64,000 nt of DNA from Rhyzopertha dominica (lineage: Eukaryota; Arthropoda; Insecta; Coleoptera; Bostrichidae), in assembly GCA_025024175.1 (NCBI GenBank), contig QCXZ01000064.1, positions 21,138,286 through 21,202,285 on the forward strand, read 5' to 3'. This document shows positions 44,401 through 53,400 of this stretch, piece after piece. Numbering within the stretch: the first letter of the stretch is position 1; each line of letters opens with the position of its first letter. The position numbers and the translations under genes are program-made. Below the pieces are notes generated by a model that saw only the letters and a list, made by a program, of their open reading frames with translations, searched no databases and was not told where the DNA came from.

Positions 44401-47400
44401 CAAAAAAAGAAAACCTTAGGTAATAGATATAATGCTTACTAATACAGTTTAACTGTTACTTTTGATCATTATTGAAGTTGAAATTACAGAATACTACTAT
44501 GCTGAAACTTAATCACATAATCATAAATCTTATTTGAATTTCTACTCTAGTAATGTTATTTTAACATGATGTACTTTGAGTTTTTGATTATAATATTTCA
44601 TAATGGAAACGGAATAATAAACCCAATGCTTCAGCTAATTGAAATAACTTATAAATGATACACTTTTGTAGGCTTATATTCATATATATATATGCTTTTA
44701 TTTTGTACCCTTCGTCCGATAATGAGGTAATGTTTAACCTCAAAACCGATCACCAATAAATAAAAGAAAGGAGCTGGAACATTTTATTCCACTTATTTTT
44801 ATTATAGGTTAAAATTTATGTTTATTTAACCATGTTAAAAGTTACCCGTAAACGTACACGTAGTTTTTCTATCCCAGGTATAGACTGCCACATTTTAAAT
44901 TTATGGAAGTGTTTGTATGAAAATTTGTAAAATATTGCAACATTATTATTATAATACTCTATAGAATTGCAAGAATTTTAGTATCATAATATGGCATATT
45001 TAACAAGGGTTTATCCTATTCCAATGCATAATAATTTGAACCGGCACCCCTGATGACGCGTTAGGTGCCGCGTGCTGATTGGTTAGAAGTTACCAGACAA
45101 CCTATCTATGTCTAGTAACCTTGAGCCAAACCAATTAGAACTGCATCTGACAAATATATAATAATTAAACTTTATATACCAACAAATCCGCTTCAAGGTA
45201 CCCCTCAAAATGTTAATGCTTAAAATTTAAAATCACACTACAGAAAAAATAAAAGACGAGATAAAAAATATGTAGAATTAGCTGACATTTTTAAAATTTG
45301 TACTGTAGACTGTAAACCTTAAAAATAAAAAAATCTAAAGTATGAATAAAATCTGTCATGCACACCCCTTTGAAAAGTACCCCTAACAATTTTAAATAAT
45401 ATAGTAAATAGGATGTATTGTAAGAATGTTGCCGGTATTTAGTTTTGATACGATTTTTTTTCTCTTTTTTAAAAGGGTAAAAAATGCCACTTTAGGAATT
45501 TTGGAAAGCCAAAAGATGGTGCACAGCATGGAATTATCAAGGACCCTAATGTTAATGTGAAAATAAGGAATAATAATTATGTAGAAATATGGCACTGGCT
45601 TTTTTATGAAATTGTTCAATTTACTAATTTTTTCTGTATGTCAAACTTTTCCTTTTTTTTATTTTTTTGTTATTCAGTTTTAGTAACTAGACTGGTGTTT
45701 GACCTCTGTAGAGTGCAATATGTAAAATTAGACACATTTGTAGCTAGTTACTCATGGAATCTGTTAAACGAATAAATAATTCATAAATAAAATTAACCTA
45801 TGTAAAATACACAAATAAGATATTAATAACATGTAATAATCAAATAAATTTAGTAATTTGTACAATAAGTATTTATTTGTTTTATGTCAACTGACAGGTG
45901 AAGTTTTTTTAAGCCATCTTGTATGTACTTTTTGTATTGTATCATAAAAAAGTTGTTGATTTATAGCAATATTTAGTAATAACCATGCATGTTAGTATAA
46001 ACGTCCTATTTTTTTAAATAATTTTGTGCAATATTATTTACGTATGTGTTTTATTTACAGATAAGCTTTTTTAACACCCTGTTTTCCTAATCCGTTCTGT
46101 AAATTAATGAATTGTGCTGATAATGTTTAATTTGTATTGTAATATGTATTGTTTTGGATATTTTATTTTTTCTTTATTGTACAATATTTTATTTGTCCTT
46201 TGTTTATCATTTTCTACAAATTTTGTATTTACTGTTTATTGCATGTTGCTATGTTGTATATTTTTTTATTTCTGAACAGTTTGTTCTGAATAAAGGTAGC
46301 AATCTTTTATTATTTATATATTTGTTTTTACTTGAGTCGAGAATGTGTACACATACTTGGCACTTATTTTTTTTTAATTTATAAAAATGTTTGCTTGAAA
46401 TAAAGCAGCAATTTCTATATATCTTTGATCGTATACTTTCTTTTATTCTTCACAATTACAAATTTATCTGTGCCTCTCAAGTATACATTTTTTATGCTTT
46501 TAAAACCATTATTGACAGTGTTCTATTAATATTTATTTATTATTAATATTAATTATAGCATTACGTTAATATATATTTTGGTAAGTAATGCACACAATAC
46601 TATTACATTTTTAACGTTGCTGTATGGTTGGTTGCCGACAACGCTTTATTCCTAACTAGTTGGGTACCACTGATGTCTAGTAACTTTGTCGGTTGGTTCA
46701 TGTGTCGGTTGATTTAAGTGTCGGATGATCCATATGCTCCGCTTTAATTTTACCCAACCTATTTCCACTGTTAGTTGGTCAGCATCACATGAATATTGAG
46801 GCCATAATCTTTACCAAAGTTCTTAGTAGAATTTTGTGTAATATATTATTGCCGAGAACCCGAAATTTTTTCAGTGGAAATTACTCTAAAAGGAAGATAT
46901 CAAAATGAGTTCTGACTGGCTTCAAAAATTTAGACATATTCGATTTCAGACAATAATTAAGTATTTGGATGAATCATTTTCTAGCAACATTAATGCAGTG
47001 GAACCATTCAAGGCTAAAATAATACAAAATTTACTAATTTGGGTTGTAAATTAAGTATATCGTCGTTGATCGTGAAATACCTCCTATGTGGTGTTCAGAC
47101 CGATTTTTAGATTTTACATGCAATTGGTTGGTTTTTAGGCGTGTAATAGCTTAATAAACCTCCTAAGTGGATTAAAAAAGTGTTTCTGCAAGTAAAACGC
47201 CTTTTTTTAAACCTCTTATGTGTCTACACAACAAATTCATCGTGGAATATCTCCTATGTAGTCATATTCCACATAGGATGCTTTTCAGTTAACATCTTAG
47301 ATGGCACTTGTTGTAATATCCACATAGGAGGTTTTTAGCAAATAACAATTTGCGCCACATAAGATGTTCTTAGATAAGTACTTTTGACTAAATAGTGAAA

Positions 47401-50400
47401 ACTATTTCGTGCAGCGGACCACTAGTGTTTAATTGGCAATAAATGACAAATATTCTATTTCTTCGAAGTTTTACAGTGACCAGTGACAATTTGGGTGATA
47501 GTCAATTGCATATTACACAATATGGTAAGTAAAGTATTTAGTGATAGATACCTATTTGCTTTAATTACTTACACCAATAAAATATACTGACATAACCTAA
47601 CTTTTCAATAGCGAACATTTATTAGCGCTTGCTTATGGTAAAATATGCCTCAAATCGTCTCCAACACAGAACAGAAATTTGAAGTAATGTTATATTTATT
47701 ATGAATATTAAGCTAAAATAGAAAATAAATGGAAATGAAGCCAAAAAATACTAATATTGGTGCAGTCCAACTGCCACATAGGAGGTTTTTTAACACCTGT
47801 GTGTGCTTTTATATACATATTTATAATCTTGTATTTTACGGACGGGGCAATAGGCCTTTTTCTGACTAGGCAACCAAATAATATAAAACTTTTTTTCCTT
47901 GTGTTGTCTCTATTATTTTCTAGCCAAAAATGTCAGCTTTTGTATAAATATTTAAACTTAATTTTACTGTTTAGCCAATGCAATATTTTGGTTTCAGAAC
48001 ATGGAAAGCCGTGGCAGAAAGTTAATTGCAATGGTCGCGAAAAAAACTGAAAATACTGTGGTGGAAAATCAAAAGAAGGAGCTATTAGTAAATAATAATA
48101 TTATGAACTTGTCGGAGGAAACCCGATTTGCAGCTAGTATTACCGAGATGGACGTTATATTTGCCGATGATTTCAGAACTCAGAATTTTGATATGACTAC
48201 TCCAATAGTATTTCAGCAGAATCCGGTTTTCAGAAATACCACAGAAGAAACTGTGCCTCAAGAAACCCAGATGGAATTTGAAGGTACTGAATCTTTAGCT
48301 GATACAGGTCAAACAGAATATTATAATGAAGATACAGTAGAAATGAATCATAAATTGATTAATCAAATTGGACATTTTGAACCCGACATCGATAAAGTTG
48401 GTACGACTATGATTACTGAACTTCAACCAATTCAAAATATTATGATGAGCTGTGAATATGATTTGGAACATACACAACCTGAACAACTTGCACTTGGCAT
48501 CGAAGAAGCTGGTAAAACTACCATAATCACCGAACTTCAACCAGTTCCAAATATTGTGATTAGCTACGAAAGTAATATGGAAGACACACACGCAATGAAC
48601 ACAGATGGCATTACAATCTTAAGAGTACAGGAGGACTGCAATTTAGAACACAGTAATTGTGGTAAAACTGATAACGGGGAAAAGAACGTAATACATCGCA
48701 AAGATAAAAAAAACTCTGCGAAGAATAGAATTTTAGGACGTGATTATATGGGCTATAAAAAATAAGAAACGGCATTATTCAAGATGTACTCAAAGAAAGT
48801 AGAAAAATGGGGAACAGATGTGGTCATAACAGTATTAAGAAAAAAAGTGACAGAACTTTTCTTTGCCGTTTAATTTCTGAAAACGACAGAGAAAATCTTT
48901 TCAATTATTTTTGGAATTTGCCAACATGGCCAGAAAAGAAAATGTATATCAAGGGTTTAGTGAGCACAAGAAATATAAGAAAGAGGAGGTCGCGAATAGT
49001 AAGTACAAAGAGCAAAAATAAAAACGTGTTGAAGGAACAATCGGGGGATGATACGGAAGGAGAGGTAGAACAACAAAAAGGTCCCAAAAAAATGGAAGGT
49101 CATGATATTTTCCTACCAAAAGAAGATGGCGAAAAGGTTCGGGTCTGTCGAATCTTTTTTCTAAATACATTTTGTCTTGGTGAAGATACTTTCAAGAGAT
49201 GGGTGAAAAGGGAAATCAACAAGGCGGATGATGTTGAAATAACGATTTGCCAGCCTCCAAGAAAGACAAAAAAAATTGCAGATGAACAATCCATTAAAAG
49301 TTGGCTTGAATTGCTACCAAAAGTACCTAGCCACTACTGCAGGAAATCATCAAAAAAGGTTTATGTGGAATCAGTTTTCAACTCTAAAGCACAAATGCAT
49401 AGAGAGTACGTAAAATGGTGTCTAGAAAAACAAGTTAAGCCCGCTTCCATTACTCTAATGAAAAAGATATTGGCGAAGGAAAATATTGCCATACATCGGC
49501 CAAGAAAAGACCAATGTGATATCTGCTGCAGTCACAAACTTGGGCATATTCCTGAAGATGAATATCAGCTTCATATTCAGCGAAAAAATGATGCAAAAAC
49601 TGAAAAAGATGCCACCAAAGCTAATGCAATAGCGAATAATGACCACATGGCAATCACAATGGACCTACAAAGTGTTCTTCTATGCCCCAAAACACTACAA
49701 TCTGCTATGTATTATAAATGTAAATTACAAGTACACAATTTTACAATATATAACCTTAAAAATGGAGACGTCACTCTCTATGTTTGGCATGAGGGAAATG
49801 GAGGAGTTACTTCCAATGAATTTACTACTTGCATCTTAGATTTCTTGTGTAATGCAAAAAATGGATACAAAACTATTAGTTTAATATCTGATGGATGCGG
49901 ATATCAAAACCGTAACCGAGTTTTGAGCAGTGCTTTAAGAGATTTTGCTGCACAGCATGATGTCACCATTGAGCAGATTTACCTTACAAAAGGCCACACA
50001 ATGATGGAGGCTGATAGTGTTCACTCGACCTTAGAACAACTTTTCTATCCCCCTATTAATTCACCCAGCGATTACATAGCTAGAATGAGAGTAGCTAGAC
50101 CTAAACAACCCTATGACATTAAAGTTGTTCATTTTGATTTTTTCAAAAAATATGATTCATTGGCAAGCAATCTCGCTTCCCTTAGACCTGGTAATTCAGT
50201 TGGAGATCCTACAGTGGCTGATTTGTGTAAAATTAAATACAGCCCAGAAGGAATTATATGGTACAAAACACACTTCAAAGAAGACTGGCAAAAACTCACG
50301 CAACGTCGTCAGACTTCAACTGAAAGAGGGAGCTTAACACCACTTTATGATAGACCACTTCCTATACCAGAATCCAAATTTAAAGACCTTCAAAGCTTGA

Positions 50401-53400
50401 AATCGGCGATTGAAAAAGAGCACCACGCGTTTTACGATAACCTGTCCTTCAAGCCTGACAAGAACTCGAAAGATAAGCTCTCCAGTGGAAATGTAGCTGA
50501 AAACCGGAAAGAAAAGTCAGAGAAAAAACGTGCTAATAAAGGATTAGTTTTAAAGCAAAAACCCGGTAGCAAGAAAACAATTGAAAAGTCGCAAATAAAT
50601 GTACGTTCAAGGCGAAATAAAAAATGACGTACAATTTGATTAACAATATTTTTATGTTTTTTTGTATAAAAATTTTTGTTTAGTTTTTATTGGTATTAAT
50701 AGCGTCCCATAAACCACTTAATATCTGTCGCATTTTTCTAATAAAATAAAATCCTATGTGTCTATTTTTTGTTTATTAATTCTCCTATGTATAAATCCAA
50801 GATGGTTAGAATCTCCTATGTGGTGAAGCTCAGGGTGTTTATAATTAATTGGGCTTTAAGCAATGTCCTAGTACTTTGATTTTTGTTTTCGTGGCTATTA
50901 AATATTACGTTTATGGTAAATTTTGAATTACGCGCTAATGTGAAGCAAAACAACAGAAATAAACTAATTGTTCTTCTTCCTGTAAAATTTATATTTTTAC
51001 ACATTGGAGGTATTTCACGATCAATGACGATATATGATTTACAATGGATGAAAGTAAGTAATTTTGGAGACTGCTAGCCCACAAAGTGTTGACTCATGGT
51101 GGGGAAAAATCTGCACCAGGTGGGAAATTTGCAAAGGAAGGATAAAGTTTATGCCATTGAAATTTGCTATAAAGGCCGAAATAAATGTTGCATTACTGAA
51201 AATACTTTTCGTGAATGATTTCATAAGGAGAGTGAGAAACAACTAAGTGAAAAAATTTTAACACAAAAAGAGCTTATAACAAATTATTTAAAATTTGTGT
51301 TGTAGCTCCTTCCCAGTTGTATCTTTAATTCAATCTAAGGATCAGCATTAGATCTAAGCCGTTAAGCCCTATTAACAAAAAGAGTTACCTACGACAGTGA
51401 AAACATTAACTTGAAGAATGTACGTTTTTGCGGCCAGAGTTAGATTGAAATCTTAGTCTTTTTGGGTTAGACCGTGTCTGATTTCAGAATAAGGTGGACG
51501 TTTCACTCGCATTTGTAAAGGGCATCATCAGGGCAGGAATAAGGCACAAAATTATCGCGAGAAACACATCAGAACTGCATAAAATTCCAAGGGGGGATAG
51601 CAAAAATTCAACAAACCCACAAACGTTGCGAATTAAATGGATACTTGTTTAATTTAAACGTTATTTTAAATATACGATATCCTTTAGATAATTTGTGTTA
51701 CTATTTGTAAATGTACAAACACTGAAATATTCATACATGTAAAATATCTATAGTTACCAGTAGATTTTTACAACAATACTTTTAATTCTAATATTCTATT
51801 AGAAGCATTAGTTTTATTCTGTATTAAACAAGATAGTTTATTTTTGTGTTTTCTACTCAAATATTTAAGAATCATTATTTTAAATACGCATTTTCGATTC
51901 GCTAAAACAAACAATAATTTTATTTCATGGAATTATTTTTAATATTATATTGAATCTACTTTTAAAAATCACTGTTAATTTCTCCGATACATTATTTATT
52001 TAATACCAAGGTAACCAAACAGAATTAACTTTTATTGTTTTAAACATTAGTTTAAGGCAACGGCGAATACACGAATTAAACAACAATGGTAGTTTCCCTA
52101 GCGAATGCTACGCCAGCATCAAATTAGTTCAATGAGGATGTTAGCCATAGAATTATTGCGTTTATGATTTCCCCTCGCATGTATAAAAATAAAATCTACG
52201 TAAGTTAAAATATAGACCGCCAGATTTATGCAACAATTTTAACTCGAATATTTCTTTAGAAACATTATTTATATTTCATATTTAACAGGATAGCTTATAT
52301 TTGTGAAACATAACTTTCTCTTCTAATAAAGAGTAAAACGGCGTTCCATAAAGGACACTGACCGACTGATCATTTCAGGTTTCCACCACACCAGCAAAAA
52401 TTTCTTTGGCCGGTAACTCTTTTAAAAATAACTACTTAATAACTGCCTGAAACTTGTTTTTATCAAAATTCTGCTTATTCTCAAATATGCCATTTTCAAA
52501 AATTCACAGTATTGTCACAATTTAGTGAACTGTTAGTACCAAATTTGAGATCTCGTTTAAAACACCATAGTTGTTATAATAGCAACCAAATTAAATTTTG
52601 TTTACTGGAAATTCTTATAATTCTTATAAATAATGTTAAAAAAAGTGCAATAAGTTACTAATTTCATGTGGTTTTTATAATAAAAAATACAATGCATTCA
52701 TGCACTTTTAGTTTAGTATGCAACAATCTGGATATTTAGCTGATTCAACCATAACAAAACTAAGTATGGTTTGCATGAAAAATAATACAGGTTTGTGTTA
52801 AGCTAAAAAATGTAACCCCTTAAAGAAATTCTGAGTATGCCATGAGATTCAAAATAAAAATATCTACAAAAAAAATTTCTCCATGTTTCTTTTTGTATCT
52901 ACACACCCATTCAAGATAATGAGAAAAGAAGAAATGTTACGTTATTTAAAAGTGGCTATAGTTTCAAAATAAAAAAACGATGTAAAAATGGCGATGGTAC
53001 AGCTCAAATCGCAACAAATAAGTAAGACAGTAATGCCAAAACCGCAACCCTCTAGCATAAATAGTTACTGAGATACCTTAAGATTACAATGAAAATGGGA
53101 CACCTTCTAATGTATGCAACTTAAATAATAATTTCAAAGCAATAATCGGCTTGAACATTCTTTAGAATTGGGAATATGAAGGCTCGTATTCCCACTTGCA
53201 TCAGTCCGCCTGCCGCGGTTATAGGCGACGGTCTGCCCTAGTCGGTCTACTCTCTACCCCTGCCTGAAGAGCCCCAACAGGGCGAAACTAGTCATAGGGT
53301 GAGAGTAGACTGACCAGGGCAGATGAATTTTATTTCATTCTTTAGAATATTAAAATACTTACCTTAAAAGAGCTTCTCCATCATAAATGTATAATCTCAA

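Follow-up and report, generated by a model that had tools for sequence, protein, structure and literature searches.

The Sola superfamily of DNA transposons is said to have been described originally by Bao et al in 2009. According to parts of PMC10741241, Sola elements encode a transposase with an Asp-Asp-Asp (DDD) triad, create target-site duplications (TSDs) of 4 bp, are mostly 2–9 kb long and have terminal inverted repeats (TIRs) of 11–1124 bp. For Sola2, passages of PMC3627910 give 4-bp AWWT TSDs such as ATAT, AAAT and ATTT, with an 888-amino-acid transposase in a Dictyostelium element. Here we describe an element in a stretch of 64,000 nucleotides from the beetle Rhyzopertha dominica (contig QCXZ01000064.1, positions 21,138,286 to 21,202,285; hereafter the window). 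With good confidence we consider that positions 47061–51029 hold a member of a cut-and-paste DNA transposon family that was active recently and most likely belongs to the Sola superfamily, being Sola2-like. The assignment is made because Sola and Sola2 are characterised in the literature by their DDD transposase and by duplications of 4 bp that fit AWWT.

Ends and copies of the element

A sequence-only reading of the window had placed a DNA transposon here, with 45-bp inverted termini lying 4.0 kb apart. Inverted ends about 4 kb apart were indeed found in a first self-comparison of the window (35 nt, 94% complementary), but comparison with other copies sets the true ends of the element at 47061 and 51029, giving a length of 3,969 bp and a TIR of 30 bp that starts with 5′-CG and is identical at 28 of 30 positions (2 mismatches). 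The outer 15–17 bp of the 45-bp arms (47044–47060 and 51030–51044) are host DNA, absent at the other copies; they consist of TTGTAAAT on the left and ATTTACAA on the right plus the 4-bp duplication, and are palindromic by happenstance. The ends are arranged as follows.

47057 to 47060, no strand: left copy of the TSD, ATAT
47061 to 47090, plus strand: left TIR, 30 bp with 5′-CG start, an end present in all six copies
51000 to 51029, minus strand: right TIR, 30 bp, from the self-comparison and the alignment with other copies
51030 to 51033, no strand: right copy of the TSD, ATAT, from the duplication scoring

The genome holding the window amounts to 479 Mb in 138 contigs, in which pattern counts are lower bounds. 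Searching it with a 25-bp end pattern at up to 3 mismatches gave at least 12 matches, corresponding to two ends for each of six copies, while the reversed pattern gave none in the same 479 Mb at the same limit; because of this difference the inverted ends are not due to chance. The six copies have flanks unrelated to each other. Five are whole and, when aligned, differ per pair at 2–11 ungapped columns (some of them N) and 1–45 gapped columns, all figures of 40 or more involving L005, which bears a larger deletion. The sixth, outside this alignment, is split into two pieces, each about 100% identical to the window element. Genome-wide, the end search at up to 3 mismatches revealed no small derivatives sharing these ends, though it is blind to more diverged ones.

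The split copy (L063, C64:33442600-33448700) is interrupted by an insertion of about 5.5 kb. This insertion begins and ends with a 319-bp direct repeat, the two being 99.7% identical, and has one long frame of 1,406 codons on the minus strand. From its sequence this looks like a young long terminal repeat (LTR) retroelement nested in the transposon.

The window element also contains ten 12-bp repeats CCTCCTATGTGG at up to 2 mismatches, compared with two in the 60,031 bp of the window that lie outside it. Seven lie in the first 310 bp of the element and there is one at each TIR.

47080 to 47366, no strand: seven of the ten repeats, in both orientations
47774 to 47785, no strand: further repeat
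50812 to 50823, no strand: further repeat
50999 to 51010, no strand: further repeat

Subterminal repeats of such a kind are typical transposase binding sites, and these are probably binding sites as well.

Target-site duplications in seven related families

Six further families in the same genome encode related proteins (26–40% identical) and have the same anatomy. Their number is at least six, and their loci include L022-L030, L015-L018, L021/L026/L033, L029/L032, L035-L038 and L046-L050. In several of these families the copies are almost identical and the open frames long (770, 774, 781 and 796 codons), which suggests recent activity of the DUF7869-type group. The protein search of the genome covered 72 scored candidates from 411 at first look, and the family copies given here are those fetched, with more listed.

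A duplication of fixed length, which the sequence-only reading had advised looking for, is present. Across the seven families 25 copies could be scored at both ends; those left unscored had one readable end only (L016, L032, L036, L049) or no partner copy (L017, L020, L028, L031). A 4-bp duplication is exact in 25 of 25, including L038, whose location within a TA microsatellite makes it uninformative for the length, whereas 5 bp fits none and 3 bp fits one. The targets are ATAT (16 copies), ATTT (2), AAAT (2), ATAC (2), CTAT (1), ACCA (1) and AAAA (1), so that AWWT fits 20 of the 25, the exceptions being the two ATAC, CTAT, ACCA and AAAA. For the nine copies at targets other than ATAT the two sides of the same copy agree in every case (9/9), as against 6 of 216 cross pairs. 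Excluding the split copy, the 24 unsplit elements are 2,810–3,971 bp long.

A 2-bp TA-type duplication with 5′-TCG ends was the first reading of these sites and fits all 25 copies; it was dropped for the 4-bp reading. In five copies (L015, L018, L023, L025 and L046) the base beside the conserved CG is odd, and the 4-bp duplication with 5′-CG ends is preferred because it explains all 25 copies including these five, unlike a duplication of 2 bp. The choice bears on whether the element could be a divergent Tc1/mariner-type or ISL2EU/PHIS-type transposon with a 2-bp TA or AT duplication. We regard this as very improbable: even when read as 2 bp, 6 of the 25 targets are not TA (AA, TT, CC), and Pfam shows no other domain of Tc1/mariner or PHIS type in the window open reading frames (ORFs), in 63 aligned homologues, in the full-length database protein P0001 or in the sister proteins. 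For PHIS elements (Harbinger/ISL2EU) passages of PMC4482050 give a TWA or AT duplication; here it is 4 bp.

A TTGTAAA motif occurs no more than 40 bp from the insertion point in 4 of 6 copies of the window family and in 5 of 25 copies overall, with 7 occurrences per 2,000 bp near insertion points and 8 per 5,500 bp further out. This was noticed post hoc and may reflect chance or a target preference.

The transposase and its relatives

The single long coding region that had been reported for the element is interrupted in the window copy, where the transposase frame is broken into two parts, although full-length versions exist. P0001 (875 amino acids) is identical to the second part along the entire length of that part, and an open frame of 888 codons is found in C86, another copy from this genome.

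48001 to 48765, plus strand: first part of the transposase frame, 254 amino acids, equal to residues 1–254 of the uninterrupted P0001; the frame stops here
48807 to 50627, plus strand: main transposase ORF, 606 amino acids, from the ORF list, the homologue search and the genome copies

The peptide blocks pointed out in the sequence-only reading (MDLQSVL, YVWHEG, SDGCGYQN and HTMMEADSVH) all lie within the 606-residue ORF. By eye, a possible first intron (47525–47997, GTAAGT ... TTTCAG) lies ahead of the ATG at 48001, and a further ATG upstream, at 47522, is a candidate start.

A protein search with the 606-residue ORF gave 648 homologues at E ≤ 0.001 among 4,060 candidates. Names were taken from the best 120 of the 648 and from a second listing of 69; among these listed matches the named relatives include beetle, moth, aphid, limpet and fish proteins, with many of the nearest from beetles and moths, and are mostly labelled as uncharacterised, hypothetical or DUF7869 proteins. 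Such labels would suit a host gene of the DUF7869 group that happens to lie inside a chance or unrelated inverted repeat, but that explanation, which the sequence-only reading had named as the refuting case, is itself refuted by six copies scattered through the genome with precise ends and duplications and by the same anatomy in six sister families.

That the protein is of DUF7869 type, as had been proposed, holds through its relatives rather than through a direct match. Pfam gave no match for the 606-residue ORF at E ≤ 10 and none for P0001 at E ≤ 0.01, DUF7869 (PF25273) included in both cases, and only three chance-level matches for the 254-residue part (best E 0.062). DUF7869 is found, however, in 35 of the 63 aligned homologues at E ≤ 0.01 and above the curated cut-off in sister families C, D, E and F; family B falls below it (E 4.6e-5) and family G has no match. 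Because these relatives and sister families carry the domain, sequence comparison supports the window protein being a distant member of the DUF7869 group. Pox_D5 (PF03288) also matches weakly in 13 of the 63 homologues (best E 3e-4), and there are weak matches to other families in single homologues.

A sequence search of the PDB with the window protein gave a single match, at chance level (E 0.15). Scans with two peptide patterns, which make for a weak test, gave 26 pattern matches in viral contigs and 116 in bacterial and archaeal genome contigs, with no relative in either.

Catalytic core

Modelling supports a core with a predicted RNase-H/DDE-type fold, preceded in the protein by conserved Cys and His residues. 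The separate fold search covered both this catalytic core and the whole model. Where the sequence-only reading had an Asp/Asp/Glu set as in DDE nucleases, the acidic residues are aligned as follows, with conservation given for 63 homologues and for a set of 46 sequences.

49494 to 50126, plus strand: predicted RNase-H-fold catalytic domain, residues 230–440 of the 606-residue ORF
49662 to 49664, plus strand: codon of Asp286, putative first catalytic residue on strand 1, invariant (63/63, 46/46)
49890 to 49892, plus strand: codon of Asp362, putative second catalytic residue after strand 4, invariant (63/63, 46/46)
50007 to 50009, plus strand: codon of Glu401, rival third residue (61/63, 45/46; Pro in family F, L038)
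50013 to 50015, plus strand: codon of Asp403, likely third catalytic residue in the helix after strand 5 (63/63, 46/46)

The spacing between the three aspartates across the related proteins is 74–82 and 40–45 residues. Because Glu401 is replaced in 2 of the 63 homologues and in family F, where the L038 frame is uninterrupted, the triad is likely to be better read as Asp-Asp-Asp, with the catalytic role of these residues deduced from their conservation.

Proposed mechanism and significance

We propose that the product of the single gene attaches to the 30-bp ends as well as to the subterminal repeats CCTCCTATGTGG, and that its RNase-H-fold core, using Asp286, Asp362 and Asp403 with two metal ions, frees the element at its 5′-CG ends. 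The freed element would then be joined to an AWWT site at positions staggered by 4 bp, and repair after joining would leave the 4-bp duplication. The window copy, with its broken frame, could be moved in trans, since full-length versions of the transposase exist.

For annotation, what is new is that DUF7869 proteins appear to be Sola-type transposases. DUF7869 is named in no paper of the literature searched, a scope with most subscription papers and Repbase outside it, and the link to transposases may already be known to curators. A widespread animal domain of unknown function thereby gains one on physical evidence, since a single genome contains seven families that have matched ends and duplications of 4 bp. 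It would be wise to look for such ends around any gene annotated with DUF7869 before treating it as a gene of the host. The available literature passages contain no description of the biochemistry of Sola-type transposition; the near-identical copies, of which some have full-length frames, could serve as a system for testing it.

Comparison with known superfamilies

The sequence-only reading had taken the protein for a transposase of a poorly described group. The group is probably not undescribed, as AWWT duplications with a DDD triad are features given for Sola and Sola2 in the published passages. Each Sola feature from those passages that can be assessed here is found: the 4-bp TSD, its AWWT sequence, the three invariant aspartates, and the size and TIR length. 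Membership of Sola is thus most likely, as a strong inference from features rather than a result of sequence comparison.

Several points weigh against the assignment. It is based on described features rather than on a Sola protein sequence, and in Pfam no named transposase family was matched by the window ORFs, by P0001 or by any of the six sister proteins, DUF7869 being the sole domain where there was a match of note. All 25 copies can also be accounted for by a 2-bp TA-type duplication with T at the ends, given five terminal substitutions. The RNase-H comparison that had been suggested yields the predicted fold, but Foldseek gave the whole model no match at E ≤ 0.001 (best 2.7e-3) and the core model only two, both UvrC, with UvrC, PRP8, a terminase nuclease and NurA ranking above Mos1; the VIA structure list is a re-alignment of Foldseek's own candidates and not an independent search. 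Mobility is read from genomic copies, with no empty site or transposition observed.

These points leave some room for a separate unnamed superfamily of DUF7869 transposases with 5′-CG ends and a DD40D triad, only convergent with Sola2 in the 4-bp AWWT duplication. The silence of the literature searched on DUF7869 agrees with this, as does the absence of any relative named as a transposase among the listed matches, and neither the 5′-CG ends nor the spacing of the aspartates has an established match to a Sola sequence. We consider it unlikely, given the agreement with the published Sola features set out above, and favour the Sola2-like assignment.

Other superfamilies compare less well. The CMC/Transib clade (EnSpm, Mirage, Chapaev, Plavaka, ESTA) has, according to passages of PMC12730594, C(2)C and H(3-4)H motifs between the second D and the last acidic residue; neither was found in any of the 46 sequences. 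The C/DxxH motif placed in the same interval for hAT, P, MuDR, Kolobok and Dada in parts of PMC9587614 is present in 1 of 46 (P0040) and not in the window protein. Tc1/mariner elements such as Mos1 differ in their 2-bp TA duplication, whereas here the duplication is 4 bp and the protein is much longer, with conserved Cys and His residues before the catalytic strands. The integrases of the retroviruses SIV, HIV and PFV show a resemblance at the level of the fold only, with 11% identity over aligned residues, and differ in that the element here has no LTRs. With PF25273 the relation is one of divergence: the homologues and four sister families carry the domain, while divergence has put the window protein and family G beyond the reach of the model. 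Sola2 is compared through its published description; the likeness to it lies in the 4-bp AWWT TSD, the three conserved aspartates and one long transposase (875 amino acids against 888), and that to Sola as a whole, as described in the passages, in the short TIRs and the 2–9 kb size range.
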